From contig JAHBTJ010000002.1 of the NCBI GenBank assembly GCA_019638595.1, positions 186,001-250,000 on the forward strand: a stretch of 64,000 bases of DNA, written 5' to 3'. A program made the position numbers and the translations under genes. How positions within the stretch are numbered: the first letter of the stretch is position 1; every line of letters starts with the position of its first letter. The notes below the pieces were generated by a model. That model did no database searches and had not been told where the DNA came from. It was given only the letters and a program-made list of their open reading frames with translations. The DNA is from Chitinophagaceae bacterium (GTDB taxonomy: Bacteria; Bacteroidota; Bacteroidia; Chitinophagales; Chitinophagaceae). Below are positions 30,757 through 61,591 of the stretch, piece after piece.

Positions 30757-30809
30757 TTCATTACGCCTTTTTCCCGCGGCAAAAGTCTTTAGTAGTATAA
30801 GGTTACTAC

Positions 30810-32006: not shown

Positions 32007-32230
32007 TCGAAGCTGAAATTCAACATATTCTTTAATATAAAATATAGAAGATATGAAATAACAAACCCACATTCTAATTCTTCAATATCAACCTAAAAAG
32101 TTGTTGTTGAAAACGGGGCTATTGGTTCAATAATAAACCGGAAGTGTTAGCTCCACTCCCGGCTGTTCGATTGGCCAATACCAAAACATCGGCAAGGATA
32201 TTTTATTACTTAACCAAATCACTGCAATTT

Positions 32231-35200: not shown

Positions 35201-35830
35201 CCCGCTACCGGTTTGCTGATGTTTGATCAAAATGGTGCTCCGTTAGGGTCTGACGACTTTAGTATTCTTGGCAAAGGAGTTCCTGATTTTACAGGAGGAT
35301 TTACCAATTCGCTTACCTGGAAAGGGTTTAATCTTAGCTTCTTAATTGATTTTAAATCAGGCGGAGATATTTTTTCAGGCACGAATGTTATGATCACCAA
35401 AGCCGGTTTTCACAAACAAACATTATTGGGAAGAGAGGGTGAAGCTCCTTTGGTTGTTACTGGATTGTTTGAAGATATAAATAATCCGGGTACGTATAAA
35501 CAAGAAACAAGAACGCTGATCAAAGGACAGGCGTCAAGCTACTGGAACTATTTGGGAGACAGAAGCGCAGACAGGTTTATGTATGATGCTTCTTTTGTAA
35601 AGCTCAGGCAGATCACTTTGGGCTATTCACTTCCTTCGAGGTTGTTAAATAAAACACCTTTTAAAGGCGTGATGTTTTCCGTGGTTGCCCGCAACCTGGC
35701 AATACTTTATAAAAACACGGAGAATATTGATCCCGAATCAAGTTACACCAATTCCAACGGGCAGGGCCTTGATTATTTCGGGTTTCCCGCAACGCGCACT
35801 TACGGATGTAACCTGAGATTAACTTTCTAA
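32231..35830 (+). CDS. SusC/RagA TonB-linked outer membrane transporter with STN domain
   Basis: 1199 residues from ATG 32231. A GTG 29 codons upstream is also in frame but less likely. A signal segment (MRMITCFIFLACMHVSA) is followed by an STN signalling domain (ISGKNSDIRKILSSVEKQTG, about residues 65-135), a carboxypeptidase-regulatory-like domain (GKVTDENGNPVAGATVQVKG) and the TonB plug (LGIARDVKALQFS; VVIRGAKTLGSSNNQPLYVIDG; MTVLKGASAAALYGSRAAQGVI). The large barrel ends CNLRLTF. It imports oligosaccharides with SusD. The STN domain links it to the FecR/FecI pair just upstream. Confidence 0.95.
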   Translation: MQKTVKGTCCSISSGIAFRHAAKKLKSKRFRFSSQTLLVMRMITCFIFLACMHVSARTSSQTVTISGKNSDIRKILSSVEKQTGYVFFYNQEDIKLAHKVTVSVTDMQLNDFMELLFKGQPLTYRIAGNTIALSQKNAVPVIKPLPAENLLLIQVTGKVTDENGNPVAGATVQVKGRSQTAAITDNDGSFSIDVDNDATLVISSVGFVSKEVPVAGKSVLDIMLQTDKKNLSEVIVTALGIARDVKALQFSATKVDGDNFTQARENNTANALAGRVAGVNVTKIASGPGGSSRVVIRGAKTLGSSNNQPLYVIDGIPMDNTNYGQAGTWGGADGGDGMSSINPDDIESMTVLKGASAAALYGSRAAQGVILITTRTGKGAKGLGIELNSNYVMETVNNITDMQKTYGAGGYVGATLETQKATKAETLDQVWNNNWTYNGWGPKLDGSPSVQFDGTTHPYSYTGDNWKRFYDVGNSFTNSISLTGGSATQNFRASLSNLNSNGVVPNSRYDRINGTLSTNSKFGKKLRMDAKVMYTNERVKNRPGLSDAPGSGINTMYFIPNNVDVCSMIGDPNKPGAVPSLALQEEMGITVSAGRKPGEEYAFTPDIYTNNPYWVAYQYIKSDVRNRIISSGSLRYDFTDYLYAQVRIGYDFSTKRGAESTPEGTGYRDEGYLFESETRVSELNIEGIVGFEKKFNKIGAKAFVGGNQMRGVWEYMGLEGRGFNTRFLSNISNATQKTYGYDYGKSGINSLFGSAELSFNDYLFLTATARQDWFSVLNPETNSIFYPSVGASFVFSDAFKDLPGWLSFGKLRASWAQVGNASSVGSYSTIVSYLADQTHLGVPVGRLNSQYNLPNSALVPYTSTETELGIDIRFFNNRLGLDFTYYAQKTTNDILNAGISVASGFSSTTVNLGQIRNRGIEFLLSGTPYKSRNLTWDMSLNFAKNNSKVISLIEDQPELPVEDPRTYTAAIKHIVGYPYGMITGFTQKRDPATGLLMFDQNGAPLGSDDFSILGKGVPDFTGGFTNSLTWKGFNLSFLIDFKSGGDIFSGTNVMITKAGFHKQTLLGREGEAPLVVTGLFEDINNPGTYKQETRTLIKGQASSYWNYLGDRSADRFMYDASFVKLRQITLGYSLPSRLLNKTPFKGVMFSVVARNLAILYKNTENIDPESSYTNSNGQGLDYFGFPATRTYGCNLRLTF

Positions 35831-35848
35831 CAACTTAACTGAAACAGT

Positions 35849-37471
35849 ATGAAAAAGATATTTCATCTATATATTATTGGGGCAACTCTGCTGGTAATAG
35901 CCGGGTGTAATACCAAAGAGCTACAGGATCTTAATAATAATCCCCAGGCGCAGCCTACCATCAATCTCAATTTTTTATTTACGAATGCGCAGCTAAGCGC
36001 TGCATCGGGAGGTATTGAGGATCATGCCCGCCAGTTCAACTGGAAAACCAATGTCGGCTTATGCTCCTATGCTATTCAGCACCTGGCCTATCTCGCCGGA
36101 CCGGGCATAGGCCCAGGCGATAAGTACACCGAAGATTTTGAAGCTTCTTTCGTACCCTTTGAATACATGTATTCCGGAACGCTTAAAAATGTGAACGAGA
36201 TTTTGTACCAGGTAGATTCAGGGTTTGCCAAAGGAGAGGATTATAACAACCTGAAGCAGGCATCCAGGGTTTTAAAGGCATTTACATTTCACCGGCTAAC
36301 GGATTATTATGGAAGCATTCCATATTTTGATGCCTTAAAAAATAAGGAAGGTGTCTTTTTTCCGAGTTATGATAAACAAAAAGACATTTACATGGATCTG
36401 TTAAAGGAGCTGGATGAAGCTACTGCGGCTTTTACTGCAGCTGCACCGGATGGCTTTGCCGAAGGGGACCTGTTTTATAATGGTGATATTGATAAATGGA
36501 AACGATGGGGTTACTCCTTAATGCTGAGATTGGCCATGCGTATATCAAACGTGGACGCAGCTACCGCCAATACCTATGTGGCAAAAGCTGTTGCCGGTGG
36601 CGTTTTTACAGGCAACGATGATAATGTATATGTACCAATGGCTATAGGTCCCATCAGGGAAAATAATCAAAATGGCTTATCCAGGTCTTTTATACCGGGC
36701 GATGGCGGGCAAACAACTATTATGAGTAAAACATTGATTGATTTTCTGAAAGGCGCTAATCCTTCTTCAACTACAGACGATGACCCGAGGCTGATGATAC
36801 TTTGTGGTGGCATTGGCACATGGAACAGCGAAAACGCCTGGAATCCCATTAACACCAACCCTGTTAACCAAAAGGGAATGCCTAATGGTAAAGATGAAAC
36901 CATGCTGAGAGCCATTGAAGGTATTCCTGCAAATGCTGATTTTAATCCTAACCTGATATACTCAAAGATCAATCCCAAATTATTGGATCGCGATGAACCC
37001 TATCAAATAATGAACTATGGCGAAGTAGAGCTCCTGCTGGCAGAAGCAGCCGAAAGAAGTATCGGCGGGCTTTCACCTGCCGATGCAAAAGCCCACTACG
37101 AGAAAGGTGTGAAAGCTGCCATGCAGATGCTGGTTAAATACGATCCTTCATTTGCAATAACGGATGGGCAGGTATCCACCTACCTGACAACATATCCCTA
37201 TGGCGTTACCAAACCCGCATTAGAAATGATAGGGGATCAATTATGGGTGTGTCAGTTTTTAAACTGGTGGGAAGCCTGGAGCAATTACAGGAGAACAGGA
37301 TTTCCTGCTTTGATACCCATCAATTATCCCGGTAATGTTACCGGTGGTGTAATTCCCACGCGCCTCAATTACCCAACCGGCGAAATATCCGGTAATCCTA
37401 ATTATGCTGCCGGAGCAACTAAACCCAATACATGGACCACAAAAGTCTGGTGGGCAGGCGGTCCTGAATGA
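35849..37471 (+). CDS. SusD/RagB-family outer membrane glycan-binding lipoprotein
   Basis: 540 residues. The lipoprotein signal ends LLVIAGCNTKELQDLNNNPQA, with the lipidated cysteine near residue 20. The N-terminal pattern (NPQAQPTINLNFLFTNAQLS) and C-terminal MNYGEVELLLAEAAERS and DQLWVCQFLNWWEAWSNYRRTG place it in the SusD-like superfamily, probably the branch known as SusD-like 2. It caps the SusC barrel and binds glycan. It starts 18 nt after SusC, so the pair is co-transcribed. A hairpin follows at 37502-37558. Confidence 0.95.
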   Translation: MKKIFHLYIIGATLLVIAGCNTKELQDLNNNPQAQPTINLNFLFTNAQLSAASGGIEDHARQFNWKTNVGLCSYAIQHLAYLAGPGIGPGDKYTEDFEASFVPFEYMYSGTLKNVNEILYQVDSGFAKGEDYNNLKQASRVLKAFTFHRLTDYYGSIPYFDALKNKEGVFFPSYDKQKDIYMDLLKELDEATAAFTAAAPDGFAEGDLFYNGDIDKWKRWGYSLMLRLAMRISNVDAATANTYVAKAVAGGVFTGNDDNVYVPMAIGPIRENNQNGLSRSFIPGDGGQTTIMSKTLIDFLKGANPSSTTDDDPRLMILCGGIGTWNSENAWNPINTNPVNQKGMPNGKDETMLRAIEGIPANADFNPNLIYSKINPKLLDRDEPYQIMNYGEVELLLAEAAERSIGGLSPADAKAHYEKGVKAAMQMLVKYDPSFAITDGQVSTYLTTYPYGVTKPALEMIGDQLWVCQFLNWWEAWSNYRRTGFPALIPINYPGNVTGGVIPTRLNYPTGEISGNPNYAAGATKPNTWTTKVWWAGGPE

Positions 37472-46395: not shown

Positions 46396-46626
46396 AATTC
46401 CTGAAAAGGCAATCAAATTCCCATAAACGTAACATTAAAGCAACCTGACGCCGTTATATTGCACCCAATATAAAAATATTAAGTCCGGGCATTACGGCTA
46501 TTTCGCAGTTGGTTTATGGTAAATAGTTTTAGGGTATGCCCGGCACTAATTTTTCCCGAACGAAGTAACAGTGGTGATTCGTCCTCTGAAATTAACCGCT
46601 GTTGCTTTGTTTTAGCGCTCAATACG

Positions 46627-47780
46627 GCAGTCCTCGCAGCAGGAAAATGCAGCATCACGAGGATGGCTTCTCCCGCAAAGCAACATGGTACTTCAGGATT
46701 TGTTTAAGCGGGCTTGCCATGACGGGTAAAAAGGTTGACGGCTTCGCAACCTTCATGATCATTCAGGTGTACAAATAATCCACCCTTTCGCCAAATTCCG
46801 TGTTTTGCCAGGCATACCTGCTCCAATAATTATACATACCCCTTCCCGGTAGAAACAAGTTACAAAAACAAAATACGCTCGCATCGCGTCTCTGCGAACC
46901 CGCCGGCATCAAAATTTGAATTGAATGAATCTTAAGGCGGGTGAAGCAGTCCTCGCAGTGGGAAAATGCAGCCCCACGAAGATGGCTTCTCCCGCAAGGC
47001 AACCTCGTATTTCAGGATTTGTTTAAGCGGGCTCGCCATGACGGGTAAAAAGGTTGACGGCTTCGCAACCTTCATGATCATTCAGGAGTATCAATAATCC
47101 CTCCTTTCGCCCACTCCCGTGTTTTGCCAGGCATACCTGCTCCAATAATTATATACCCCCTCCCGGTAGAAACAAGTTACAAAAACAAAACACACTCGCA
47201 TCGCGTCTCTGCGAACCCGCCCACAGCTTGCATGGAATTAAAGGTATATTACGGCGGGTGAAGCAGTCCTCGCAGCAGGAAAATGCAGCCCCCCGAGGAT
47301 GGCTTCTCCCGTAAAGCAACATGGTACTTCAGGATTTGTTTAAGCGGGCTCGCCATGACGGGTAAAAAGGTTGACGACTCCGTAACCTTCACGATCATTC
47401 AGGTGTATCAATAATCCCTCCTTTCGCCCACTCCCGTGTATTGCCAAGAATACCCGCTCCAATAATTATATACCCCCTCCCGGTAGAAACACCGTTACAA
47501 AAACAAAACACACTCGCATCGCGTCTCTGCGAACCCGCCCACAGCTTGCATGGAATTAAAGGTATATTACGGCGGGTGAAGCAGTCCTCGCAGTGGGAAA
47601 ATGCAGCCCCCCGAGGATGGCTTCTCCCGCAAAGTAACATGGTACTTCAGGATTTGTTTAAGCGGGCTCGCCATGACGGGTAAAAGGTTGACGACTCTGT
47701 AGTCTTCACGATCTTCAGGTGTATAAATAATCCACCCTTTCGCCCACTCCCGTGTATTGCAGGCGCGCCTGCCCTGCTAA
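46627..47780. repeat. Tandem array of about 318-bp repeats, 3.6 copies
   Basis: Unit starts marked by GCAGTCCTCGCAG occur at 46627, 46946, 47263 and 47581, giving periods of 319, 317 and 318 bp. The last copy breaks off near 47780. Each unit carries GGCTTCTCCCGC, then GCGGGCTCGCCATGACGGG, a GGTTGACG hairpin, and CGCATCGCGTCTCTGCGAACCCGCC. Copies 3 and 4 are most alike. Minus-strand frames of about 80 codons recur within units but lack any start context or protein-like pattern. The 230 bp before the array (46396-46626) hold only an 8-bp inverted repeat CCGGGCAT/ATGCCCGG. Confidence 0.9.
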
Positions 47781-47785: not shown

Positions 47786-47812
47786 AATGAACCCTTTACG
47801 CTGTACTAATTG

Positions 47813-49174
47813 ATGAATGATCCCTACATTTGTTACCTCAGCAAAATGAATATCATGAATCAGTATGTCAGCGATTTTGTAAGCCTTCTTGATAACGGCA
47901 ATAACACTATTTTCAATATGACGCCGGCGGAAGCTTCCGCCGCGGTTGCTTCCGGCGATCCGGGAGCTGTGCGTAAAATAGAAGGGCAGTTTGCCATAGT
48001 GGAAAAAGTGGGGCAACAGGTTTTTATGGCACGTTCTATCGGAAGACCTATGCGGTATTTCCTGGCAAAACAAACCGCGGGGCCACTGTTGATAGTGGCG
48101 GAACGTATGGACGAAATTTATGACTACCTTAAGCAAAAAGGGCTGCATAAGCAATTCCATCCTTCTTATACAAGAATGGCTCCGGCGCATCATGTAGTAA
48201 AGCTGGAAGTGATTGGCTGCCCCGATCCCAATCCTGTTTATACCCGGTTTTTTGAGCCTGAAAGAAATGTGCTTCCAACCGACCTGGATGCCATTGGTAA
48301 AAAATATATTGAAACATTAGCCAACGAATGCCAGAAATGGCTGCTGTCAATTCCGGAGAAGGAGCCGGTAGGCGTTTTATTTTCGGGTGGTATTGACAGC
48401 GGATCTGTTTTCCTTGTTCTATATCATTTGATGCTGAAGCTTGGCATGTCTCCGCAAAGACTGAAGGCGTTTACTATTTCGGTTAACGGTGGTGCAGATG
48501 CGGAACAGGCACACCAGTTCCTGGATAAGCTGGGGCTTTCTCTCTTCCTGGAAGTGATGGATGTTCCTGTGGCTGATATAAGCTATAAAGATGCCATTAA
48601 GGTGATAGAAGATTATAAACCGCTCGACCTTGAAGCTGCCACTATGGTGTTGGCGCTTTGTAAAAAGATCCGTGACACATATCCCGGCTGGAAATACCTG
48701 GCGGATGGTGACGGAGGGGATGAAAACCTTAAGGACTACCCGATAGAAGCGAACCCTGAGCTTACCATCAGGAGCGTGCTGAATAACACGATGCTTTACC
48801 AGGAGGGGTGGGGTGTAGATAAGATCAAGCATTCCCTCACTTATTCCGGGGGACAGAGCCGGGGGCATATCCGTTCGTATGCGCCTGCCAGGAAATACGG
48901 GTTCAAAGGTTTTAGTCCGTATGCGTTGCCCAATGTAATTGAAGTGGCGGAAGGCATTCCTTTTATAACGCTTACCAACTGGAAAGAAGAGGTGTTGTAT
49001 GCGTTGAAAGGAGAGGTGGTAAGCCGGGGCATAAAGGCTGTAACAGGCTTTGATATGCCGGTTTTTGAAAAACGCAGGCTACAATCAGGAGCAATTTCCC
49101 CGGATGGCTTTAAAAAGGTTTTTGCCGGGAGCGATATAGAATACCGCACCTATTTCCATTCTTTATATGCATGA
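47813..49174 (+). CDS. Asparagine-synthetase-like ATP-dependent ligase
   Basis: 453 residues from ATG 47813. The PP-loop SGGIDSGS is at residues 191-198, and the second family signature GDGGDENL lies near 300. Together they mark the AMP-forming synthetase domain of AsnB-like enzymes. The N-terminal 150 residues look like a degenerate Ntn domain (IEGQFAIVEKVGQQVFMARS), but no Cys occupies position 2 (the first Cys is residue 7), so glutamine hydrolysis is not expected. A ligase using another amine or an internal nucleophile, as in beta-lactam synthetase or lasso cyclases, is an inference. The stop overlaps the next gene by 8 nt. Confidence 0.85.
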   Translation: MNDPYICYLSKMNIMNQYVSDFVSLLDNGNNTIFNMTPAEASAAVASGDPGAVRKIEGQFAIVEKVGQQVFMARSIGRPMRYFLAKQTAGPLLIVAERMDEIYDYLKQKGLHKQFHPSYTRMAPAHHVVKLEVIGCPDPNPVYTRFFEPERNVLPTDLDAIGKKYIETLANECQKWLLSIPEKEPVGVLFSGGIDSGSVFLVLYHLMLKLGMSPQRLKAFTISVNGGADAEQAHQFLDKLGLSLFLEVMDVPVADISYKDAIKVIEDYKPLDLEAATMVLALCKKIRDTYPGWKYLADGDGGDENLKDYPIEANPELTIRSVLNNTMLYQEGWGVDKIKHSLTYSGGQSRGHIRSYAPARKYGFKGFSPYALPNVIEVAEGIPFITLTNWKEEVLYALKGEVVSRGIKAVTGFDMPVFEKRRLQSGAISPDGFKKVFAGSDIEYRTYFHSLYA

Positions 49175-50105
49175 TGGATATAATGGCCATACGATCACCG
49201 CGCTGCGCCCGGCAAAAAACAGGGTAGATCCTTATATTCCCTATCATTTTCTCCACGAACAGGAGCCTGGTTTATCCGGAGGATTTGAAACAGTGAATAC
49301 TGTTTTTCTTACAGGCAGGGAATGCGCTTTCAAATGTTTGATGTGCGATTTATGGAAAAACACGCTTGATGAAGCTGTGCCGGGTGCTATTCTTAAACAG
49401 GTTGACTACGCGCTGGAGCGGTTGCCGCCGGCGAAGCATATTAAGCTGTATAACAACGGGAACTTCTTTGATACCAAAGCCATATCTCCCGGCGAATACT
49501 CGGCGATAGCAGATCGCCTCCGCGGTTATAAAAAGGTGATCGTGGAGAATCACCCGAAGCTAAGCAACCGGCATTGCCTGGAATTTAAAGCATTGCTTGC
49601 AGGAAGGCTGGAAATAGCTATGGGACTGGAAACTATTCACCCGGAAATATTACCCCGGCTGAATAAGCAATTGACTGCGGAAGACTTCCGGAAAGCCACC
49701 ATTTACCTTAATAGCCACAACATAGATGTTCGTGCTTTTGTGCTTTTGAATCCTCCCTTTCTTACCAATGAAAGAGAGAGCATTGCCTGGACAATACGAT
49801 CATTAAAATTTGCTTTTGAAAGCGGTGCGGTACGCTGTTCAGTTATTCCTGTAAGACCCGGCAATGGCGTAATGGATATGTTGTTGAAAGCGCATGATTA
49901 TGTACCTCCCACGCTGGGTATGCTGGAAGAAGTTTTTGATAAAGCCTTATCCTTAAAGCTGGGGCAGGTTTTTGCAGATACCTGGGATCTTCGCTTCTTG
50001 TCAAAATGTTCTCTTTGTTTTGATCAACGGGTAAAGCGCCTGGAAGAGATGAATCTCACACAACAGATTAAGCCACCTATACAATGTACCTGCGGAAATG
50101 ACTAA
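49167..50105 (+). CDS. Radical SAM protein resembling archaeosine synthase RaSEA
   Basis: 312 residues. The [4Fe-4S]-SAM motif is C53-x3-C57-x2-C60 (GRECAFKCLMCDLW). Downstream segments IKLYNNGNFFD, VIVENHPKLSN, LEIAMGLETIHPEILPRLNK and VRAFVLLNPPFLTNERE follow the Elp3-type Radical SAM pattern and, in my reading, match the archaeal RaSEA family best. Four cysteines close the C terminus (281, 284, 307, 309) and could hold a metal or second cluster. Archaeosine is not known in Bacteroidota, so another substrate is likely. It overlaps both neighbours by 8 nt, indicating translational coupling. Confidence 0.87.
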   Translation: MHDGYNGHTITALRPAKNRVDPYIPYHFLHEQEPGLSGGFETVNTVFLTGRECAFKCLMCDLWKNTLDEAVPGAILKQVDYALERLPPAKHIKLYNNGNFFDTKAISPGEYSAIADRLRGYKKVIVENHPKLSNRHCLEFKALLAGRLEIAMGLETIHPEILPRLNKQLTAEDFRKATIYLNSHNIDVRAFVLLNPPFLTNERESIAWTIRSLKFAFESGAVRCSVIPVRPGNGVMDMLLKAHDYVPPTLGMLEEVFDKALSLKLGQVFADTWDLRFLSKCSLCFDQRVKRLEEMNLTQQIKPPIQCTCGND

Positions 50106-51612
50106 TAACGTATTTGAATGTGATATCCTGGTTGCCGGCGCCGGATTTGCCGGTTCTCTTACTGCTCTTGTTCTTAACAACTGTGGGTTTAAAGTGTGCC
50201 TGGTAGAAAAGGGAAAGCACCCGCGTTTCGCTATCGGCGAATCTTCCACACCTATTGCCGATATGATACTGCGTTCCTTATCATCTCAATACAACCTGTC
50301 CTGGCTGTATGATTTCTCAAGATATGGAAGCTGGCAGCAGGCGCATCCTGAAATTGCCTGTGGCATTAAAAGAGGATTCAGTTATTTTAAGCACTATCCC
50401 GGGAAATCTTTTTTTACAGACGACCTTCATTCAAATGAGTTGCTGGTGGCAGCCAGCGCGAGTGATACGCTGTCTGATACGAACTGGTTTCGTGCAGACT
50501 TCGACGCTTTCCTGGTATGGCAAGTGAAAGCGTATGGCATTGACTATTTTGATATGACATCAATTGAAACGGCTGTAAGGACCAATAACAAATGGACTTT
50601 CAATGCAAGCCGGGAGGAAGGAGCGATCACTATACGGGCTTCCTTTTTTATAGACGCTACCGGCAGCGGTTCATTACAGGAAAAATTGTTTTCGGTGAAA
50701 TCATCCGCTGAAAGCTTTTTGACCCATTCATTCGCGGTGTTTTCGCATTTTAATGCGGTGCCGGAGTGGACGGGCATATTGCAACAAAAAAATATCCCGA
50801 CAGGTGATTATCCTTACAACGTGGATCATTCCGCCCTGCACCACGTATTGGAGGAAGGATGGGCCTGGGTACTGCGGTTCAACAACAACCGCACAAGCTG
50901 GGGCTTTGCTTTGAATGGAGATGACAGCAGCTTGCGGGACAAATCTGCTACAGAAATATGGAACGCGATGCTGGCAAAATATCCCGACATCCATAACGTT
51001 ATCGGAAATGTTCCCCTGTCGCCTGAACCGGGTCGGATCATACGGTCGCCCAGGCTGCAGCGAAAGCTTGAAAAATGCTTTGGCGATGGCTGGGTGGCAA
51101 TGCCTCATACCATCGGTTTTATAGATCCTCTTTTCAGTACAGGCATCGCGTATTCGCTGGCGGGTATAGAACGGGTAGCGGGCATACTGTCGGAAAACCG
51201 GGATTTCAAACAGCCGCTCTATGCGCAGTTGAAAGCGTATGAGCATACTGTTTTTGAAGAGTTAAAGCTGATAGATATGCTGGTGGCCGGATGCTACAAA
51301 ACCATGCGGCATTTCCAGCTCTTCAATGCATGGAGCATGCTGTATTTTACTTTTACGATTGTATACGAGCAGCGCCGCCTGAACAAGCTGCCTGTTAAAT
51401 ATTTCCTGGAGGCAAACAACCCTGATGTGCAGGCGATCGCTTCCTGCACCTATAATGAATTGCAGGAATTAACGGAACGGCCAAATATATCGCAACAGGA
51501 TATAGAGATGTTTACGGCTAATATAAGAAAGCGCATAGCGCCCTATAATACAGCCGGCTTGTTAAAACCGGCTGCCAAAAATATGTATCACCACACGGCG
51601 GCAAATTTATAA
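50098..51612 (+). CDS. FAD-dependent oxidoreductase of the tryptophan-halogenase type
   Basis: 504 residues. The dinucleotide fold GAGFAGS is at residues 14-20. IGESSTP (46-52) aligns with the GEATIP segment of flavin halogenases. FIDATGSGS and GFIDPLFSTGIAYSLAG are FAD-site motifs of the same superfamily. The halogenase tunnel motif W-x-W-x-I-P appears only in part as GWAWVLRF, so halogenation is doubtful and another oxidation or reduction is possible. It is the third gene of the overlapping operon (8-nt overlap upstream) and ends 45 nt from the convergent TPR/FG-GAP gene. Confidence 0.87.
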   Translation: MTNNVFECDILVAGAGFAGSLTALVLNNCGFKVCLVEKGKHPRFAIGESSTPIADMILRSLSSQYNLSWLYDFSRYGSWQQAHPEIACGIKRGFSYFKHYPGKSFFTDDLHSNELLVAASASDTLSDTNWFRADFDAFLVWQVKAYGIDYFDMTSIETAVRTNNKWTFNASREEGAITIRASFFIDATGSGSLQEKLFSVKSSAESFLTHSFAVFSHFNAVPEWTGILQQKNIPTGDYPYNVDHSALHHVLEEGWAWVLRFNNNRTSWGFALNGDDSSLRDKSATEIWNAMLAKYPDIHNVIGNVPLSPEPGRIIRSPRLQRKLEKCFGDGWVAMPHTIGFIDPLFSTGIAYSLAGIERVAGILSENRDFKQPLYAQLKAYEHTVFEELKLIDMLVAGCYKTMRHFQLFNAWSMLYFTFTIVYEQRRLNKLPVKYFLEANNPDVQAIASCTYNELQELTERPNISQQDIEMFTANIRKRIAPYNTAGLLKPAAKNMYHHTAANL

Positions 51613-51656: not shown

Positions 51657-54600
51657 TCAGGGCTTCAGCGCATTCTTAAAATCGTCTGTTGATACCTTGC
51701 GTGTGTTGTATTCCTGCATATAGGCTTTGTGCTTTTCAAACGGATAGCGGCTATCATTTTTATAGGGATAGGAAGGCATGTTGTGGAAAGGCAACGGTTC
51801 AACAGTTTGTCCATGAGCGGTGTTCAGGTCGCCGTCTTTTACCCATCCTTCGCTGTAAACCAGGAAATCCCTCTTCCATCCTTTTGGCAAAGCAGGCAGG
51901 CTGCGGGCATCAAAATCAATGGTTATTTCATCGCCGGAATTACAAATAATGTATTCATCATCGGCTTTCTGCAGCAGTGGCAATACATCTCCATAGCGGG
52001 TATAGTACCCCGTAAGGTCGCGCCATTTTTGCCCACCGGTAGCTTGAGCGTAATCAAACCAATGGGGTCCGTATGGCCCGCCTTTCCGGTACATAGAGGA
52101 ATATCCCCTGAACGAAAGCCCGGCTTTTGTCATTGTAAGGTCGTGCATATTAACCGGCGCCTGCGCTGTTCCATTTGAGTAAAATATCTCATCCCAGTAT
52201 AGCTGCATGTTGGTGCGTATCCTTATTTTCCGGTTATCGGGAGTAAGAAATTTGTCTTTCAGGTCAACGATCACCATCTTGTCTTTTCCCATCGGGAAAC
52301 CAATATCGGGTATTACGGTTTGCCATTCACCTTTTTGATTGATCACCTGCAGGAGGGGAGGCATCATTTTATATTCTGCAGATTGCGCCGCAGCGGCATT
52401 GATGCTGGCATCTGAAGGAAAGGTCCAGCCGCGCAAAAACAGGTACAAACTGTCTTTTCCTGCCTGCGCTCCCAGATCCAGCACCAGGTCATGATCTTCG
52501 GCCAGTCCCTGGTATTTGCCTAAATTAAAATGAGATGTATACCGGAAGTCGTATGCCAGTATCCGAGGCAGCACATCATTACCGTTGCCATCGGTAGCGC
52601 TAACCGGATAGTGTTTGTTGGCAACGGCATATACTTTTTTACCGGGAAAAGGAGGGAGCACAAAACGTTCATCGGCAAATACATCCACTGAGTCGGGATG
52701 ATCTACCGCCACCAGCGCTGCCTTATCGAAGTATACGGTTTCCCACAGCTCCTCTGTGATCTTTATAGAGTAGGTATTGTCACGCGGTTTTATTTTTTCA
52801 CCGGGTATCAGCAGGTATTCTTTTGAAGCGTCCGAAAAAGCGTACATGGTATCCTTTCCGTTTACCGCCAGCGGCATGCCCAGTGCGCTCCGCCACATCA
52901 TATCCTTTAAAAATTCATACTCCTTACCATTCCATACAAACAAAAACGGGCAGGAGCCTTTTAACATTTGTTCTTCTATTATCCTTTCTTTTGCCGACGG
53001 ATCTTTTATGACCTGTGGGGCGCCGTTGGGCCAAATAATGCGAACAGCATCAACGGATCCGCGCGCGCCCAGCCCAAAATTGGTAATAGCCCTTTTAATT
53101 GTTCTTAACTGGTATAGATCTCCGGACTTCAGCTCAACCTGCGCTCCTATACCTAAACGGTTATTTTTATTATTGCCATAGGAAAGCCCGGTCAATTGCA
53201 CCTGCATGTAATGATTTAAATTGCCGCCGTCATTTCTTAACAGCTTCACGCCGTTGGGGGTGGCTAAAAAAACATCATCATCGCCATCAAGATTAAAGTC
53301 GGCAATAGCGATGCGGGTAGCCTGCAAAGGCGTTTGCGGTAATAAGTGCGATGCTTTGCTGAAGCCTTTTGTACTGTCGTTATGGTACAATTGTATACCA
53401 CGGGAGGAAGCATTGCCGGCAATGCCGGTTACTATTAGATCCAGGCGCCCATCGTTATCAAAATCTATAAAAGCAGCATCTGTTACTTGTATGTTCCGCA
53501 GGTCTTCGTTAAATATTTTAGAGGCGGGATCAACAGCAAACCCGGAGCCGTCAACATTCTTAAGTAACCAGCTTTGCGATGCTCCCCCCGCGATAAACAG
53601 ATCGGGCATACCATCGTTGTTATAGTCTGCCGAAACAACCACCCTTCCTTTAAATTTTTCATTTTTTAGCCTGGCTGACTGGGTAGCTTCGCTGAACTTC
53701 GAACGCCTGTTGTTATTCCATAAACGCGGCCCGCCGGCATCGTCAATAGTTACTATATCCAGGTCTCCATCCACATCATAATCCGTAAAGTCCATAGCGC
53801 TTGTTCCTCCCGGCGCTGTAAGCCCCATCATATTTGCCTGCTCTGTAAAACTGCCATTGCCATTGTTGCGAAAAAATTTGTTTGTTTCCTTGGTGGCCGC
53901 GTATAGATCAATATCGCCGTCCTGGTCAAAATCGGCAAACAGCATTTTTTCCACATTGGCAGCATTGTTCAGTCCTATATCCCGTTTATAGGGCATGAAC
54001 GAACCTGCCCGGTTTTTGTATATCAAAATTCCTTTTGTGGTGGCTATCAAAAGATCCGGGTATCCATCGTTGTCGTAGTCAATAAAGGCCACGTCAAGAT
54101 CGCGTGCGGAATGATTGATACCCTCCCCCTCAACTTTGGTTTCCTGGAAGTTCCCTATCCGGCTGGTCAATAAATAACATTCCTGTTTTCCTGCTATCAT
54201 GCTGCTGCTGTATAAATACATTTCGCCTGCCTCCGAATAATCGGTTACCGCTATAACGGCGTTACCTGTTTTATTTTGGAGTGAATTATCCAGGCCAATG
54301 GCGCTCGAGGCATCTGTGAACCTCGTATTGCCTACAGTAACGCGCCGCGTGCCCGGCTTCTTATTGCCCGACGCGAAATCTGCATATCCCGATGATAATC
54401 CCGGGCCATCCAGCATGAGCTGCGATTCGATGCAGGCGCCTGTTACCCGGAACAGATCATGAAACTTGCTTAAATATACCAGCGCCCCGGAGAACTGCCT
54501 GCCCCTGAGCGCCTGTATGGCCTGGTGGTAAGGAGTATTGATCGCCGGGGAAAAATCGGGTGCGATCTTTTTTATTTCCTGCAGGTAAAAAACTGCTGAA

Positions 54601-55181
54601 TCCGCTTTATGGTCGCGTGTAAGCGCTTCCGCCAAATGTAAAAGTATTACAACATTACCGGGCGCTATGGAAAGCGCTTTAAGCAAATATGCTTTTTTCG
54701 GTTCCGCTGTATGAAGGTTTGCCAGTGCATAGTATGCAAAAGTATTTTTCCCGTTGTTCCTGATAGCGGTATTCAGCTCATTGACCGCGTTTTGCTTTTC
54801 TCCTTTCCGGATATATATCTTAGCCAGCACAGACCTCATTTCATCATTCCCGGGGTTTAGCTTTAGTCCTGCCCTGGCTATATTTTCGGCCTTGCCGTAA
54901 TTTTTCTCCGTTAAATACAATATGGCCAAATCCCTGTAATTCAAAATCTCTGCCGGTGATATTTTAATCGCTTTTTCAAATGCGGCTTCCGCTTCGTTTA
55001 GCTGGTTCTTTTGTAAATACTGGTATGCAAGTACTCTGAGAGATACCTTATTGTCCTGGGAGAAGAGTATATGAGTCGTTAAAACAAGAATGACGGTCGC
55101 CACCAGCCTGCACCCTGCTCTGTTAGATGCAATGCTTCCCGGTATCTTTCCAATAAACTTATATATTCTATCCATCAGCAA
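51657..55181 (-). CDS. TPR/FG-GAP/ASPIC-UnbV secreted protein, copy A
   Basis: 1174 residues with a signal-type hydrophobic segment (LVATVILVLTTHILFSQ). The start could be the second ATG, two codons in. TPR repeats (about 50-240, with NQLNEAEAAFEKAIKISPAE) precede FG-GAP/VCBS repeats (about 300-640; DYDNDGYPD, DFDQDGDID, DFNLDGDDD), an ASPIC/UnbV domain (RLGIGAQVEL, RTIKRAITNFGLGA, VRIIWPNGAP) and a 420-residue C-terminal region of unknown function starting at FVWNGKEYEF. That last region is nearly identical to copy B. It is probably exported. It is downstream of copy B by 75 nt. Confidence 0.88.
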   Translation of the reverse strand: MLMDRIYKFIGKIPGSIASNRAGCRLVATVILVLTTHILFSQDNKVSLRVLAYQYLQKNQLNEAEAAFEKAIKISPAEILNYRDLAILYLTEKNYGKAENIARAGLKLNPGNDEMRSVLAKIYIRKGEKQNAVNELNTAIRNNGKNTFAYYALANLHTAEPKKAYLLKALSIAPGNVVILLHLAEALTRDHKADSAVFYLQEIKKIAPDFSPAINTPYHQAIQALRGRQFSGALVYLSKFHDLFRVTGACIESQLMLDGPGLSSGYADFASGNKKPGTRRVTVGNTRFTDASSAIGLDNSLQNKTGNAVIAVTDYSEAGEMYLYSSSMIAGKQECYLLTSRIGNFQETKVEGEGINHSARDLDVAFIDYDNDGYPDLLIATTKGILIYKNRAGSFMPYKRDIGLNNAANVEKMLFADFDQDGDIDLYAATKETNKFFRNNGNGSFTEQANMMGLTAPGGTSAMDFTDYDVDGDLDIVTIDDAGGPRLWNNNRRSKFSEATQSARLKNEKFKGRVVVSADYNNDGMPDLFIAGGASQSWLLKNVDGSGFAVDPASKIFNEDLRNIQVTDAAFIDFDNDGRLDLIVTGIAGNASSRGIQLYHNDSTKGFSKASHLLPQTPLQATRIAIADFNLDGDDDVFLATPNGVKLLRNDGGNLNHYMQVQLTGLSYGNNKNNRLGIGAQVELKSGDLYQLRTIKRAITNFGLGARGSVDAVRIIWPNGAPQVIKDPSAKERIIEEQMLKGSCPFLFVWNGKEYEFLKDMMWRSALGMPLAVNGKDTMYAFSDASKEYLLIPGEKIKPRDNTYSIKITEELWETVYFDKAALVAVDHPDSVDVFADERFVLPPFPGKKVYAVANKHYPVSATDGNGNDVLPRILAYDFRYTSHFNLGKYQGLAEDHDLVLDLGAQAGKDSLYLFLRGWTFPSDASINAAAAQSAEYKMMPPLLQVINQKGEWQTVIPDIGFPMGKDKMVIVDLKDKFLTPDNRKIRIRTNMQLYWDEIFYSNGTAQAPVNMHDLTMTKAGLSFRGYSSMYRKGGPYGPHWFDYAQATGGQKWRDLTGYYTRYGDVLPLLQKADDEYIICNSGDEITIDFDARSLPALPKGWKRDFLVYSEGWVKDGDLNTAHGQTVEPLPFHNMPSYPYKNDSRYPFEKHKAYMQEYNTRKVSTDDFKNALKP

Positions 55182-55256: not shown

Positions 55257-58200
55257 CTATTGTCCACCGGGCATTCCTGTTTTTGGCTTCAACGCATTCT
55301 TAAAATCGTCTGTTGATACTTTGCGTGTGTTGTATTTCTGCATATAGGCTTTGTGCTTTTCAAACGGATAGCGGCTATCATTTTTATAGGGATAGGAAGG
55401 CATGTTGTGGAAAGGCAACGGTTCAACAGTTTGTCCGTGCGCGGTATTCAGGTCGCCGTCTTTTACCCATCCTTCGCTATAGACCAGGAAATCCCTCTTC
55501 CATCCTTTTGGCAAAGCAGGCAGGCTGCGTGCGTCAAAATCAATGGTTATTTCATCGCCGGAATTACAAATAATGTATTCATCATCGGCTTCCTGCAGCA
55601 GTGGCAATACATCCCCGTAGCGGGTATAGTACCCCGTGAGGTCGCGCCATTGCTGACCGCCCGAAGTGTTATAATAATCAAACCAGTGCGGGCCAAAGGG
55701 GCCTCCCTTCCTGTAGGAGTCTGAGTAACCCCTGAACGAGAGCCCGGCTTTTATCATCGCGAGATCGTGCATATTAACCGGCGCCTGCGTTGTTCCATTT
55801 GAGTAAAATATCTCATCCCAGTATAGCTGCATGTTGGTGCGTATCCTTATTTTCCGGTTATCGGGAGTAAGAAATTTATCTTTCAGGTCAACGATCACCA
55901 TCTTGTCCTTTCCCATCGGGAAACCAATATCAGGGATCACGGTTTGCCATTCCCCTTTTTGATTGATCACCTGCAGGCAGGGAGGAGCTACCTTGTATTG
56001 TGCGGACTGCGCCATAGAGGCGTTAATGCTGGCATCTGTGGGGAAAGTCCAGCCGCGCAGGAAAAGTAAAAGATGACCGTTCGTTGCCTGCGCTCCCAGG
56101 TCCAGCACCAGGTCATGGTCTTCGGCCAGTCCCTGGTATTTGCCTTCTGTAAAATTGGAAATATACCGGAAGTCGTAAGCCAGTATCTTAGAACGTACAT
56201 CGTTGCCCCTGTCATCGGTAGCGCTAACGGGATAATGCTTGTTTGCTATGGGGTATACTTTTTTACCGGGAAAAGGAGGGAGCACAAAACGTTCATCGGC
56301 AAATACATCTACTGAGTCGGGATGATCTACCGCCACCAGCGCCGCTTTATCAAAATATACAGCTTCCCACAGCTCCTCTGTTATTTTTATGGAATAGGTA
56401 TTATCACGCGGCTTCAGTTTTTCACCCGGTATCAGCAGGTATTCTTTTGAAGCGTCCGAAAAAGCGTACATGGTATCCTTTCCGTTTACCGCCAGCGGCA
56501 TGCCCAGTGCGCTCCGCCACATCATATCCTTTAAAAATTCATACTCCCGGCCATTCCATACAAACAAAAACGGGCAGGAACCTTTCAGCTTTTCTTCTTC
56601 AATCAGCTTTTGCTTCCGCGAAGGATCGCTGATGAACTGGGGCGCCCCGTTGGGCCAAATAATGCGCACTGCTTCCAGCGAATCGCGTCCCCCCACACCA
56701 AAGTTGGTAAGCGCTCTTTTAATTGTTTTCAGTTGATACAGGTCGCCGGACTTCAGCTCAACCTGGGCTCCTATGCCAAACCTGTTATTCTTATTGTTGC
56801 CGTAAGAAAGGCCGGTCAATTGCACCTGCATATAATGATTTAAATTGCCGCCGTCGTTCCTTATCAGCTTTATACCATCCGGCGACGTTAAAAAAATATC
56901 ATCATCGCCATCAAGATTAAAATCGGCTATAGCAATATGCATGCCGTGCAGGGGAGCTTCGGGCAATATATGCGACACGTTGCTGAAGCCTTTTGTGCTG
57001 TCGTTGTGGAATAGCTGTATACCACGGGAAGTTCCATCCATACCCGTACCCACTACCAGGATGTCTTCATGCCCGTCGTTATCGAAATCTGTAAACACTG
57101 TTTTAAAAACCTGTGTATTTTTAAGGGAGCTGGAAAACACTTCCGAAGCAGGATCTGTTATATACCCGTTTTTACCGGTATTTTTCAGCAGGAAAGAATT
57201 ACCGTTTGGAACTCCGGCAATGAACAGGTCAGGCAAACCATCGTTATTATAGTCGCCAAAACCAATGGCGCTGCCTTTCAATGCCGGGTTCTTAAGATCC
57301 AGGGAATCCGTAAGATCAGAAAATTTTGAGTAGCGCTCATTATTGAACAATTGAACAGAGCCGTTTGATAGCACAACGGCAATATCCAGGTCGCCGTCAG
57401 CGTCCCAGTCTCCGAAATCCATATCTTTTATTCCCGCGCCTGCGCCAAGATTCATTGCCTTAGCCTGCTCTGTGAACGAACCATCGCTGTTGTTACGGAA
57501 AAACTTATTCTCCTTTTTACCGGCTATATACAAATCCAGGTCGCCATCCTGGTCAAAATCAGCGATCAAAAGTTTGCTGCCGTCTGTTATATTTTCTAAC
57601 CCGGTATTCTTCTTTACCCTTGAAAAATTCCCGTCGCCCCTGTTTTTATAAATGATGATCCCCCGGGTAGTGGAAATGAAAAGATCCTGGTATCCGTCGT
57701 TATCATAATCGGCGAAAGCGGCATCTAATTCATCGCCGGTATGATTCATTCCCACGCTGGATGAAATATCGTTAAACGTTCCAAAATCTCTTTTAAAAAG
57801 GTAGCGTGAGGGCGGGGACCCGGGAACTGTGAAACCGGCGTAAATATAGGTGTTGCCGGTACCGTCGTCATCTGCCAGCGCCAAAACAGATTGCGTGGCA
57901 TGGATCGTTCCCTGTGTGATCAGCCCTGTTTTTTCAGCAACTTCCGTAAATTGGATATCGTTCAGGGTAACGGCACGATCCCTGTTATCGGTTTGGCCGA
58001 ACCTGCTGTCGTTAAACTCCGATTTAACGCCCGGGAACGCGGGAGGTTCTATTTCAGCAAAGCCGTTGGCATATACCCTGGTGGTTTCCATTAATTTGTG
58101 AAAGCGCTGTATAAAATAAAGCGCTTTGGAGGGCTGATCACCCTGTAAAAAAGCTATTGCTTTTTGGTATACGGTATCTACTACCAAAGGAAATTCCGGA

Positions 58201-58805
58201 GCTATTTTTTTTACGCTCTGCAGGTAAAACAGGCAAGAGTCTGTTTTATTTTCGGTGGCGAACAACTCGGCCAGTTGTAACCGAACCGGGAGATTGGCAG
58301 GACTGATCTCAAGAACTTTCAGCAAGCCCGATTTTTGGCCTTCGCTGTTCTTATTCGTTTTCATAATACCGGTAAGCATATAATAAGCTACTATGTTCCC
58401 AGGGTTGGAACCCAGTACCTCGTTTAATTCCTTTTCGGCGTCTTTGGTATTGTTTTGCTGAATATATGCCTCTGCCAGGATCAATTTCAACTCCGTATGG
58501 CCCGGCTGGATACTGAGTCCGTCCTGCACCTGTTTTTCAACATCGCTATAGCTGTTCCTGGCAAGGTAAAGAAGCGACAGGTCAATATAGTTGAGGATAT
58601 TATCCTTATCTGTTTTGATAGCCTTTTTAAAAGCGACTTCCGCTTCGTCGAACCTGCCATCCCACAAATATGAAAGCGCGGTAACCCTGGGGGAATTATT
58701 ATCCGCTTCTTTATGCTCCTTTGTTTTACAGGCTGTAAAAACCTGGAGCAATAGTGCTACTGCTGTTATATAAAAAAGATGAATACAGCTCTTTTTTTGA
58801 TACAT
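55257..58805 (-). CDS. TPR/FG-GAP/ASPIC-UnbV lipoprotein, copy B
   Basis: 1182 residues. A lipoprotein signal (LLLQVFTACKTKEHKE) replaces the plain signal peptide of copy A. The order is the same: TPR (GRFDEAEVAFKKAIKTDKDN), FG-GAP repeats (DYDNDGYQD, DFDQDGDLD, DWDADGDLD), ASPIC/UnbV (RFGIGAQVEL, VRIIWPNGAP) and the long C-terminal region. The TPR part differs strongly from copy A (roughly a third identical by eye), whereas the C-terminal half is almost the same. It is the first gene of the minus-strand pair and diverges from the UnbV-like gene across 124 bp with two palindromes. Function unknown. Confidence 0.88.
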   Translation of the reverse strand: MYQKKSCIHLFYITAVALLLQVFTACKTKEHKEADNNSPRVTALSYLWDGRFDEAEVAFKKAIKTDKDNILNYIDLSLLYLARNSYSDVEKQVQDGLSIQPGHTELKLILAEAYIQQNNTKDAEKELNEVLGSNPGNIVAYYMLTGIMKTNKNSEGQKSGLLKVLEISPANLPVRLQLAELFATENKTDSCLFYLQSVKKIAPEFPLVVDTVYQKAIAFLQGDQPSKALYFIQRFHKLMETTRVYANGFAEIEPPAFPGVKSEFNDSRFGQTDNRDRAVTLNDIQFTEVAEKTGLITQGTIHATQSVLALADDDGTGNTYIYAGFTVPGSPPSRYLFKRDFGTFNDISSSVGMNHTGDELDAAFADYDNDGYQDLFISTTRGIIIYKNRGDGNFSRVKKNTGLENITDGSKLLIADFDQDGDLDLYIAGKKENKFFRNNSDGSFTEQAKAMNLGAGAGIKDMDFGDWDADGDLDIAVVLSNGSVQLFNNERYSKFSDLTDSLDLKNPALKGSAIGFGDYNNDGLPDLFIAGVPNGNSFLLKNTGKNGYITDPASEVFSSSLKNTQVFKTVFTDFDNDGHEDILVVGTGMDGTSRGIQLFHNDSTKGFSNVSHILPEAPLHGMHIAIADFNLDGDDDIFLTSPDGIKLIRNDGGNLNHYMQVQLTGLSYGNNKNNRFGIGAQVELKSGDLYQLKTIKRALTNFGVGGRDSLEAVRIIWPNGAPQFISDPSRKQKLIEEEKLKGSCPFLFVWNGREYEFLKDMMWRSALGMPLAVNGKDTMYAFSDASKEYLLIPGEKLKPRDNTYSIKITEELWEAVYFDKAALVAVDHPDSVDVFADERFVLPPFPGKKVYPIANKHYPVSATDDRGNDVRSKILAYDFRYISNFTEGKYQGLAEDHDLVLDLGAQATNGHLLLFLRGWTFPTDASINASMAQSAQYKVAPPCLQVINQKGEWQTVIPDIGFPMGKDKMVIVDLKDKFLTPDNRKIRIRTNMQLYWDEIFYSNGTTQAPVNMHDLAMIKAGLSFRGYSDSYRKGGPFGPHWFDYYNTSGGQQWRDLTGYYTRYGDVLPLLQEADDEYIICNSGDEITIDFDARSLPALPKGWKRDFLVYSEGWVKDGDLNTAHGQTVEPLPFHNMPSYPYKNDSRYPFEKHKAYMQKYNTRKVSTDDFKNALKPKTGMPGGQ

Positions 58806-58929: not shown

Positions 58930-60738
58930 GTGAAAATGCCCAAAAAAACTGCTCAGGTCATAACTGCTGTTATTTTTGTAGCGCTGCTGGCAGTTACATT
59001 TATTGCCTCGCGCAACAACCGGGGTACCACAGCCGGCAGCGCAGCCTATACTGTTGAAAAAGAAGCTGCATTAAAAAAATATGGCTTTTACCTTGAACCT
59101 GTTAATGAAGAGACCGGTATACACTTCCGGCATATTTGCCCCGATGTTGACCCTAAAGTAAGTAATATTAAAATGCAGATCGCGTCGCTGGGCGCTTCTG
59201 CCGCAGTTTGTGATTTTGATAATGATGGTTGGAATGATATTTATTTTACCAACAGCCAAACCGGGAGCATGAACGCGCTATACAGGAACCTGGGCAACGG
59301 AAAATTTGAAGATGTTGCTGCTAAAGTGGGTGTGGCGGATGTAAATATAAAAAGTACGGGAGTTTCTATGGGGGCTGTTTGGGGCGATTATGATAATGAT
59401 GGATTTAAAGACCTGCTTTTATATAAGTGGGGGAAAGCCGAATTGTTTAAAAATAACGGCGGAAAAGAATTTGAAAGGGTTACAGAGGAAAGCGGGTTAC
59501 CCGGCTGGGCTAATATTAATTCCGCCATCTGGTTTGATGTTAACAACGACGGACTGCTTGATATTTTTTTAGGAGGATATTTTAAAGAGATCTTTCACCT
59601 GGACAGCCTGAATACCACCAAAATAATGCCTGAGAGCTTTAAGTATGCCAACAACGGGGGGCGGAATTTTCTCCTGAAAAACATAGGTAATGGCAGGTTT
59701 AAGGATGTTACCGAACAGTATGGGCTAACTACCACCAAATGGACGCTTGCAGCCGCAGCCGCTGATTTTAATGGAGATAACTTCCCGGAATTATACGTAG
59801 CCAACGACTATAGCGTAGACGAGTTTTATGTAAATAAAAACGGGGAAGCATTTGAGGAAACTGGCAGCCAGGCCGGTATAGGCCGTATTCCTAAAAGTGG
59901 AATGAATGCTTCGTTTGGCGATATAAACAACGACGGGAACCCTGGCATATACACAACAAATATTACCGAAAAAGGCATATTGATCCAGGGCAACAACTAC
60001 TGGCAACCTAAAAACGGCGATATGCAGGCTCCTTCCTTTGTAAACCTTGCCCAGCTTTCCGGTATTGAAAATGCCGGGTGGAGCTATGGCGCTCAGTTCG
60101 GAGATCTGAACAATGATGGGTTTATGGACCTGTATGTTGCCAACGGGTTTATTTCCGCCAGGGAAAATACCTCTTACTGGTACGATTATTCAAAAGTTAC
60201 GGGCGGCAACAGCAATATTATAGGTGATGCTAAAAACTGGCCCGATATGGAAGGTAAGAGCCAGTCGGGCTACGAGCAGGACAAAATATGGCTGAACAAC
60301 AGCGATGCTATTTTTGAAGATGTATCGGGCAGGGTTTGTCCGCCGGCAACATACGACGGGCGTTCCGTTGCTATGGCGGACTTATGGAACAGGGGTGTAC
60401 TGGATATTATTGTAGCCAATCAAAACAATATTCCCGTTATTTATAAAAACACGGCCGCAAACAATAATCACTGGGTGGCTTTTGACTTACAGGGAACGGC
60501 ATCTAACGCAGATGCGGTAGGCGCAAAAGTTCAGGTGGAATGGGATGATAAAAAACAGGTTCAGATAGTTACGGGCGGAATGGGCTTTTCGTCGCAAAAC
60601 CAGCACAGGCTGCATTTTGGGCTGGGAGAAAGCAATAAGATAGACCAGGTTACCATTTATTGGCCATCGGGCCGTATTGATAAGATACAGAGCCCCGCCA
60701 TTGACAAATTACACATTGTAAAAGAAAGCCAACAATAA
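58930..60738 (+). CDS. CRTAC1/UnbV-type FG-GAP protein
   Basis: 602 residues from GTG 58930 (ATG 58936 is equally possible). One N-terminal membrane or signal segment (VITAVIFVALLAVTFIA) is followed by FG-GAP repeats: DFDNDGWND, DYDNDGFKD, DVNNDGLLD, DFNGDNFPE, DINNDGNPG, DLNNDGFMD. A C-terminal ASPIC/UnbV domain follows (DAVGAKVQVEW, GGMGFSSQNQHRLHFGLGE, VTIYWPSGR). UnbV proteins of this type are conserved in actinobacterial enediyne clusters with UnbU. The gene ends 4 nt before the UnbU-like gene. Molecular function is not established. Confidence 0.88.
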   Translation: MKMPKKTAQVITAVIFVALLAVTFIASRNNRGTTAGSAAYTVEKEAALKKYGFYLEPVNEETGIHFRHICPDVDPKVSNIKMQIASLGASAAVCDFDNDGWNDIYFTNSQTGSMNALYRNLGNGKFEDVAAKVGVADVNIKSTGVSMGAVWGDYDNDGFKDLLLYKWGKAELFKNNGGKEFERVTEESGLPGWANINSAIWFDVNNDGLLDIFLGGYFKEIFHLDSLNTTKIMPESFKYANNGGRNFLLKNIGNGRFKDVTEQYGLTTTKWTLAAAAADFNGDNFPELYVANDYSVDEFYVNKNGEAFEETGSQAGIGRIPKSGMNASFGDINNDGNPGIYTTNITEKGILIQGNNYWQPKNGDMQAPSFVNLAQLSGIENAGWSYGAQFGDLNNDGFMDLYVANGFISARENTSYWYDYSKVTGGNSNIIGDAKNWPDMEGKSQSGYEQDKIWLNNSDAIFEDVSGRVCPPATYDGRSVAMADLWNRGVLDIIVANQNNIPVIYKNTAANNNHWVAFDLQGTASNADAVGAKVQVEWDDKKQVQIVTGGMGFSSQNQHRLHFGLGESNKIDQVTIYWPSGRIDKIQSPAIDKLHIVKESQQ

Positions 60739-60742
60739 ACCA

Positions 60743-61591
60743 ATGCAACAACAGGAGCGCGAACTTCAGGGAAGTGTTACTTCACAATGGATCAAAAAGA
60801 ATTTCCAGTATATACCCCCTGCTTTCATCACATTAATATTGCTGGTAGGGCAGCTTACGTTCGGTATTCTCGACAGCTATGTTAACCTGGTAGTGGCAAT
60901 AGCTACTTCCATACTGGCAGAAATGATCCTGGCAAGGTTCGTATTAGGCACTACTAAAAACCTTGCCAGCGCTTACATAACCGGCATAAGCGTTGGCATC
61001 TTAATACGCTCCAATGTAATATGGCCGTATTTTGTTACTGCGCTGCTTTCCATCATGTCTAAATATGTGCTCAGGTATAAAGGCCGGCATTTGTGGAATC
61101 CATCCAACTTCGGCGTTTCGTGGATGCTGGCTTTAAGCACCATGAGCGTGGCAGGCCTTAGCACCCAGTGGGGAAGTAATTTTGCCGCCCTGTCGGTGAT
61201 CTGGATACTGGGATTGATCATAGTGAACAGGGCTAAGCGATTACACGTAACCGTTACCTATGTAACCAGCTTTATTATACTGGCCTATGTGCGCTGCCTT
61301 ATAACGGGCGACGCTTTTCTTGCAGAATTATCTCCGCTAACCGGCCCTATGTACCAGTTATTCATCTTCTTTATGATCACCGATCCTCCTACTTCTGTTT
61401 CTACCAAAAAGGGAAGAATAATAGTTGTGATACTGGTGGCTATAGTAGAATTTATTTTACGGCTTAATCATTCTATATACGCACCTTTTTATGCGCTTTG
61501 CCTGGTGGGACCCATCGCTAAGTTTATTGATCTGAAAATGACTGCTCCTAAAGAGCAGCCACATTCTGTGGGCGTCCTGGCAACAAAATAA
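60743..61591 (+). CDS. UnbU-like integral membrane protein (NqrB/RnfD superfamily)
   Basis: 282 residues with about eight hydrophobic segments. It has RHLWNPSNFGVSWML in the middle and FIFFMITDPPTSVSTKKGR near residue 215, both typical of the NqrB/RnfD/UnbU fold. Canonical RnfD has a flavinylated Thr in an SGAT-like motif before its ATDP segment. Here the matching stretch reads LTGPM, so covalent FMN is doubtful. The gene is 4 nt behind the UnbV-like gene, the same pairing as in enediyne clusters. A role in membrane redox or flavin handling is inferred only. Confidence 0.82.
   Translation: MQQQERELQGSVTSQWIKKNFQYIPPAFITLILLVGQLTFGILDSYVNLVVAIATSILAEMILARFVLGTTKNLASAYITGISVGILIRSNVIWPYFVTALLSIMSKYVLRYKGRHLWNPSNFGVSWMLALSTMSVAGLSTQWGSNFAALSVIWILGLIIVNRAKRLHVTVTYVTSFIILAYVRCLITGDAFLAELSPLTGPMYQLFIFFMITDPPTSVSTKKGRIIVVILVAIVEFILRLNHSIYAPFYALCLVGPIAKFIDLKMTAPKEQPHSVGVLATK

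Follow-up and report, generated by a model that had tools for sequence, protein, structure and literature searches.

The 64,000-nucleotide window analysed here, part of contig JAHBTJ010000002.1 from a Chitinophagaceae bacterium with a 7.06-Mb genome in 52 contigs, carries three adjacent genes, termed A, B and C, which encode an AsnB-like enzyme, a RaSEA-like radical S-adenosylmethionine (SAM) enzyme and a PltM-like halogenase. A-B-C is a real, conserved, patchily distributed and uncharacterised three-enzyme unit, in which A and B are obligate partners. In addition, a secreted protein of ~1,190 residues with TPR, FG-GAP and UnbV domains, termed FGL, is newly identified as a conserved, often unlinked fourth partner. 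The features of the locus are as follows.

47810..49174, + strand: gene A, AsnB-like ATP-dependent amide ligase without a glutaminase domain (PF00733, conserved loops, PDB profile search)
49167..50105, + strand: gene B, RaSEA-like radical SAM enzyme (TIGR01210, conserved Cys)
50098..51612, + strand: gene C, PltM-like flavin-dependent halogenase, activity predicted (PDB 6bza PltM, conserved residues)
51657..55181, - strand: FGL copy 1, secreted protein with TPR, FG-GAP and UnbV_ASPIC domains, its C-terminal part having no recognised fold; the conserved partner (Pfam; presence in B-bearing genomes)
55257..58805, - strand: FGL copy 2, 66% identical to copy 1 (Pfam)
58930..60738, + strand: FGS, 602-residue FG-GAP/UnbV protein with an N-terminal hydrophobic segment (Pfam, hydropathy)
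60743..61591, + strand: UnbU-like, membrane-integral member of the NqrB/RnfD family; linked to FGS (PF03116, 1.5e-8; five hydrophobic segments)

The enzymes and their conservation

The open reading frames (ORFs) of A, B and C run head to tail on the + strand, and overlap by exactly 8 nt at both junctions (49167-49174 and 50098-50105), as the initial annotation had described. Its further proposal that the overlaps imply a fixed stoichiometry is not supported, because short gaps replace them in most relatives. The exact 8-nt A-B overlap occurs in 15 of 101 stretches, the window counted, and the B-C overlap in one of 60, the window alone; tblastn ends short of the start of C may hide more. Spacing of at most 400 nt separates A from B in 92 of the 101 stretches with both genes on one strand, and B from C in 59 of 60, so the gene order is conserved beyond chance.

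Searching GTDB species genomes with B as the query yielded 295 relatives, the best 80 of which were retained. Presence at these loci was called by tblastn (E 1e-15), since greedy ORF calling overlooks A or B wherever an antisense ORF is longer; some genomes are counted twice among the stretches (e.g. L007/L117, L008/L118, L009/L119 and L043/L223). Of the best 80 of the 295 loci, 69 hold A and 34 hold C; 70 of them have at least 1.5 kb downstream of B, and 32 of these carry C. One of the 11 loci without A (L065) has only a fragment of it at the contig end. A genome search for the other ten (L038, L041, L044, L047, L049, L051, L056, L059, L066 and L092) located A elsewhere in nine, in the L092 genome only as a contig-end fragment, and did not find it in the L044 genome.

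The unit is sparsely distributed: B occurs in 24 of 395 genomes drawn across the phylum and in 4 of 248 drawn from the order, and A in only 2 of 395 class genomes. The 24 phylum loci comprise 20 drawn loci, the window, G020 and two loci from the order draw (G231, G214), with G657 and G689 left out. A and B share a strand in all 24, and 21 of the 23 that have room for C carry it next, on the same strand; four loci have an opposite-strand gene between A and B, the one scanned being Wzi-like. Rare co-occurrence of the three genes, which would have spoken against the unit proposed initially, is thereby ruled out. Among 41 FGL-bearing genomes tested, A is present in 24/24 with B and in 0/17 without it, which makes the two obligate partners. 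Inspection of the phylum-draw loci by eye revealed no common theme among the neighbours. Searches of viral contigs for a relative of A and of plasmids for a match to B found none.

Family matches confirm the three enzyme types that the initial annotation had assigned. In Pfam, gene A has a match to PF00733 (1.5e-12) but none to a glutaminase domain; at E 0.01, PF00733 is the sole family matched, by all 59 A sequences, in agreement with an amide ligase devoid of glutaminase. In an alignment of 98 rows, the SGGxDS and DGDGGDEN loops show little or no variation (S192, G194 and D196 in 98/98), K400 and K421 are invariant, and no conserved Cys was found at the N-terminus. A PDB profile search returned asparagine synthetases only (4 sequences, E up to 0.01). 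Compared to asparagine synthetase B, A possesses the synthetase domain with its ATP pyrophosphate loop and lacks the N-terminal class II glutaminase with its Cys; the score against TIGR01536 is 43.6 bits, below the curated 267-bit cut-off for asparagine synthase. The frame of A opens with TTG at 47810 followed by ATG at 47813; the true start, however, is probably ATG 47846, giving 442 residues, because relatives mostly begin at M13 (residue 12 is empty in 74 of the 98 rows and a Met aligns with M13 in 84, with starts set mechanically at the first ATG/GTG/TTG).

The radical SAM motif CxxxCxxC of gene B (C53, C57 and C60) is present in 67/67 rows. Three further cysteines are near-invariant (C281 and C284 in 65/67, C307 in 64/67), which suggests a second metal site. 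All 44 aligned B members match the RaSEA model TIGR01210, with a best E of 9e-37. This match would fit a modification of tRNA or nucleosides, in which B is a true RaSEA acting on 7-deazaguanine and A the partner that adds a group; we consider this very improbable. The window B scores 99.5 bits, under the curated cut-off of 212, neither a halogenase of the phenol type nor a secreted partner suits tRNA, and the distribution of B is patchy. The nearest family of B is the sole support for RNA modification, queuosine and preQ0 genes not having been searched.

Gene C matches Trp_halogenase in Pfam (1.4e-13) and, as its closest solved relative, PltM (PDB 6bza, 1.8e-41). The nearest PDB entries, PltM and the tetracycline 7-halogenase, are enzymes that act on free small molecules. 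C carries the three motifs that mark flavin-dependent halogenases, namely the flavin adenine dinucleotide (FAD)-binding GxGxxG, the catalytic lysine and FxxPxxSxG: G14, G16, G19, K91, D343, S347 and G349 are present in 51/51 rows, F341 in 49 and P344 in 48. K91 aligns with K87 of PltM. C is therefore predicted to be a flavin-dependent halogenase. It is absent from some clades and is stably inherited: the A tree (83 rows labelled) needs 5 changes, where shuffled labels give a mean of 25. The tree has 95 rows, 91 of them different; six loci from genomes already counted had been taken out, as had loci with a short A or with A and B separated by more than 6 kb.

Just upstream of the operon, at 46514-47767, four tandem copies of a ~300-nt unit are arranged at ~318-nt spacing, with 65, 88 and 67% identity to the reference copy.

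A secreted FG-GAP/UnbV partner

The initial annotation left the neighbouring FG-GAP/UnbV genes unlinked to the operon and proposed looking for a conserved fourth partner; one type of these genes, FGL, is that partner. In the order draw the same 4 genomes have B and FGL. In the phylum draw FGL occurs in 41 genomes, which include all those bearing B, that is, in 24/24 B-bearing genomes against 17/371 others. These calls used two scored candidates per genome at E limits of 1e-60 (order) and 1e-40 (phylum), so that misses are possible in B-lacking genomes. FGL is also present in 21/21 A-bearing genomes of a second set, planctomycete records included, from which G249 (without A) and G256 (A fragment) were left out; G647 equals G961 by coordinates, which places at least one genome in both sets. 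When neighbours were clustered, a single cluster of FG-GAP proteins was represented in 53 of 84 stretches; 28 of the top-80 loci have both A and B with flanks longer than 6 kb, and 20 of these contain an FG-GAP protein. As a background figure, UnbV domains number 11 in the 7.06-Mb window genome and from 6 to 21 in each of 13 other B-bearing genomes (L018 left out).

Hydropathy revealed no hydrophobic segment in A and B and one in C, at the FAD motif, whereas the N-terminus is hydrophobic in 64/70 FGL and 20/20 FGS sequences. This crude measure points to cytoplasmic enzymes and secreted partners. FGL, FGS and the UnbU-like protein occur together in the window and in L244, L249, L250 and L254. 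The same module was also observed in L233, L241 and L242, genomes where A and B were not found, and is therefore not tied to the cassette.

One function for such an arrangement would be protein maturation, with A, B and C acting on residues of FGL or FGS prior to export in the manner of quinone-cofactor maturases. FGL occurs alone, whereas no case of the enzymes without it was found, and C also matches the QhpG, LodB and GoxB maturase models, below their cut-offs. The distances of A correlate with those of B (Spearman 0.77), C (0.90) and linked FGL (0.86, 36 loci), all uncorrected for shared ancestry, and the last value fits a modified protein target. However, the 11 positions conserved in 58 FGL rows with B but not in 12 without B are all Asp, Leu, Pro, Ile, Phe or Met, with no Cys, Tyr or Trp, although a site common to both groups would escape this comparison; moreover, C is nearest to the free-substrate halogenases named above. 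Maturation is thus somewhat unlikely in our judgement.

Other ideas about the FG-GAP proteins were rejected. A B-specific modification site in FGL was dropped on the residues just listed. Haem attachment was discounted, as CxxCH is absent from 24 FGL, FGS and UnbU rows and from the FG queries. For an enediyne link of UnbV and UnbU, no paper in the library searched joined the terms. A PDB profile search with the C-terminal part of FGL gave nothing meaningful (best E 0.11). Elsewhere in the window, 26645-29935 encodes another FG-GAP/UnbV protein of 1,096 residues, and 30139-37471 contains ECF sigma, FecR, TonB receptor and SusD-like genes, with a different FG-GAP type at this SusCD-like locus.

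Neighbouring genes and the proposed product

We tentatively favour, at a little under even likelihood, a minimal self-contained cassette whose product serves the secreted FG-GAP/UnbV module of FGL, FGS and the RnfD/NqrB-like membrane protein. Gene order, conservation, the A-B partnership and the co-occurrence with FGL are observed; the substrate and chemistry are inferred, as follows. A would adenylate a carboxylate and couple it to an amine, yielding an amide without the use of glutamine. B would cleave or rearrange this adduct by radical chemistry, as RaSEA finishes the product of ArcS, and C would halogenate, or oxygenate, a phenolic ring. What results is probably an aromatic amide derived from chorismate, which may serve extracytoplasmic FG-GAP proteins as cofactor, ligand or redox mediator. 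Its aromatic origin is suggested by the neighbours, since DAHP synthase is encoded in 11 of the best 80 loci and a chorismatase-like RidA protein in 6. Although the co-occurrence pattern suits a small molecule and a protein modification alike, a small molecule is preferred because FGL lacks B-specific Cys, Tyr or Trp and C resembles halogenases of free substrates.

Several points weigh against this cassette reading. Its substrate and product are predicted only. The chorismatase assignment is one weak partial match (1e-4), and the aromatic-supply and haem-protein neighbours lie mostly where C is absent, G647 alone having both; aromatic origin is therefore a lead rather than a result. The hypergeometric values for the overlap of B and FGL (9e-28; 2e-14 by genus) are inflated by related lineages. 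As 17 genomes bear FGL without A or B, FGL does not require the cassette. FG-GAP proteins of any kind occur in 6 of the 24 phylum stretches, two being other types, so FGL is mostly unlinked there. 

A product made by a self-contained cassette might also leave the cell as a secondary metabolite, such as an antibiotic, metallophore or signal, with the FG-GAP proteins as mere habitat companions. The varied neighbours and patchy distribution are consistent with this, as is a major facilitator superfamily transporter gene, which occurs in 7 stretches and in 6 of them next or near to A, and which suits the favoured cassette as well. However, FGL in 24/24 and 21/21 genomes exceeds habitat expectation, and the 20/28 loci with an FG-GAP protein argue likewise for a closer tie, making simple export quite unlikely. 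The RiPP-like (ribosomally synthesized and post-translationally modified peptide) product raised by the initial annotation, with its own precursor gene beside the enzymes, is not supported: no conserved candidate emerged among 868 small ORFs of 20-90 residues within ~700 bp of A, B or C or between A and B, a distant precursor not having been sought. Small-ORF matches recur on the downstream side, where many loci carry FGL on the opposite strand, or on the upstream side, where A is preceded by an FG gene; we read them as shadows of FG genes.

Loci of the Bacteroidales and Flavobacteriaceae type, without C, share the order (Chor)-SBP-(DAHP synthase)-SBP-FGL-FG-A-B (SBP, substrate-binding protein), although not every locus has every member. 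Genes resembling those for hydrazine synthase alpha and/or beta-gamma are found close to A-B in L028, L048, L057, L069, L084 and L091, and away from A-B in two A-B-bearing genomes (L255, L258), one of which (G647) has C. Their NCBIfam scores are far below the cut-offs for hydrazine synthase (beta-gamma 237.5 versus 1250 bits; alpha 87.4 versus 800). Multihaem cytochromes adjoin in relatives together with these genes, providing a redox context. In L057 (4352-11886), L069 and L255, the hydrazine-synthase-like alpha and beta-gamma genes were observed with genes for an FG-GAP protein, a RidA/chorismatase-like protein and substrate-binding proteins. A bolder version, which we regard as unlikely, is that the cassette makes a new aromatic redox cofactor, halogenated in some clades, that powers FG-GAP/UnbV propellers together with RnfD-like membrane and hydrazine-synthase-like haem proteins.

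Relation to known systems and significance

The archaeosine enzymes ArcS and RaSEA resemble A-B in pairing a group-adding enzyme with a RaSEA-type radical SAM partner; RaSEA processes the lysine adduct that ArcS generates, and the two form a complex (PMC11298593). They differ in that A, the linked partner of B, is AsnB-like rather than an ArcS, whereas RaSEA works with ArcS on preQ0-Lys in tRNA; B falls below the RaSEA cut-off, and the cassette adds a halogenase and a secreted partner. In a literature search for the trio, judged on titles and abstract openings, one related system was the ammosamide pathway, which likewise has a flavin halogenase (Amm3) and a putative asparagine synthetase (Amm20) for a putative amidation of an aromatic acid (PMC12715798). 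By contrast, that pathway is described as using a precursor peptide and PEARLs, and Amm10 as having only a radical SAM-like fold with the Cys motif missing, unlike B (PMC12715798). The phenol halogenase PltM shares the FxDPxxSxG motif with C; the operon partners of C are different.

A 2025 paper describes clusters of hydrazine synthase homologues that also encode two substrate-binding proteins and an FG-GAP protein of the CRTAC1 family, and reports that key hydrazine-synthesis residues are not conserved in them (PMC12758564). L057, L069 and L255 contain genes of these kinds. The main text of that paper mentions neither radical SAM, asparagine nor halogenase (PMC12758564); the link of these clusters to A-B is made in the present analysis.

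Altogether, three enzymes of unknown joint function are tied to a specific secreted protein present in every B-bearing genome searched. To our knowledge, no role has been assigned to TPR/FG-GAP/UnbV proteins, and the cassette gives a functional handle on them, as well as on the published hydrazine-synthase-like clusters. The similarity of B suggests RaSEA-type radical chemistry outside tRNA, in bacteria. If the aromatic redox cofactor proved true, it would represent a new extracytoplasmic redox system across several phyla.

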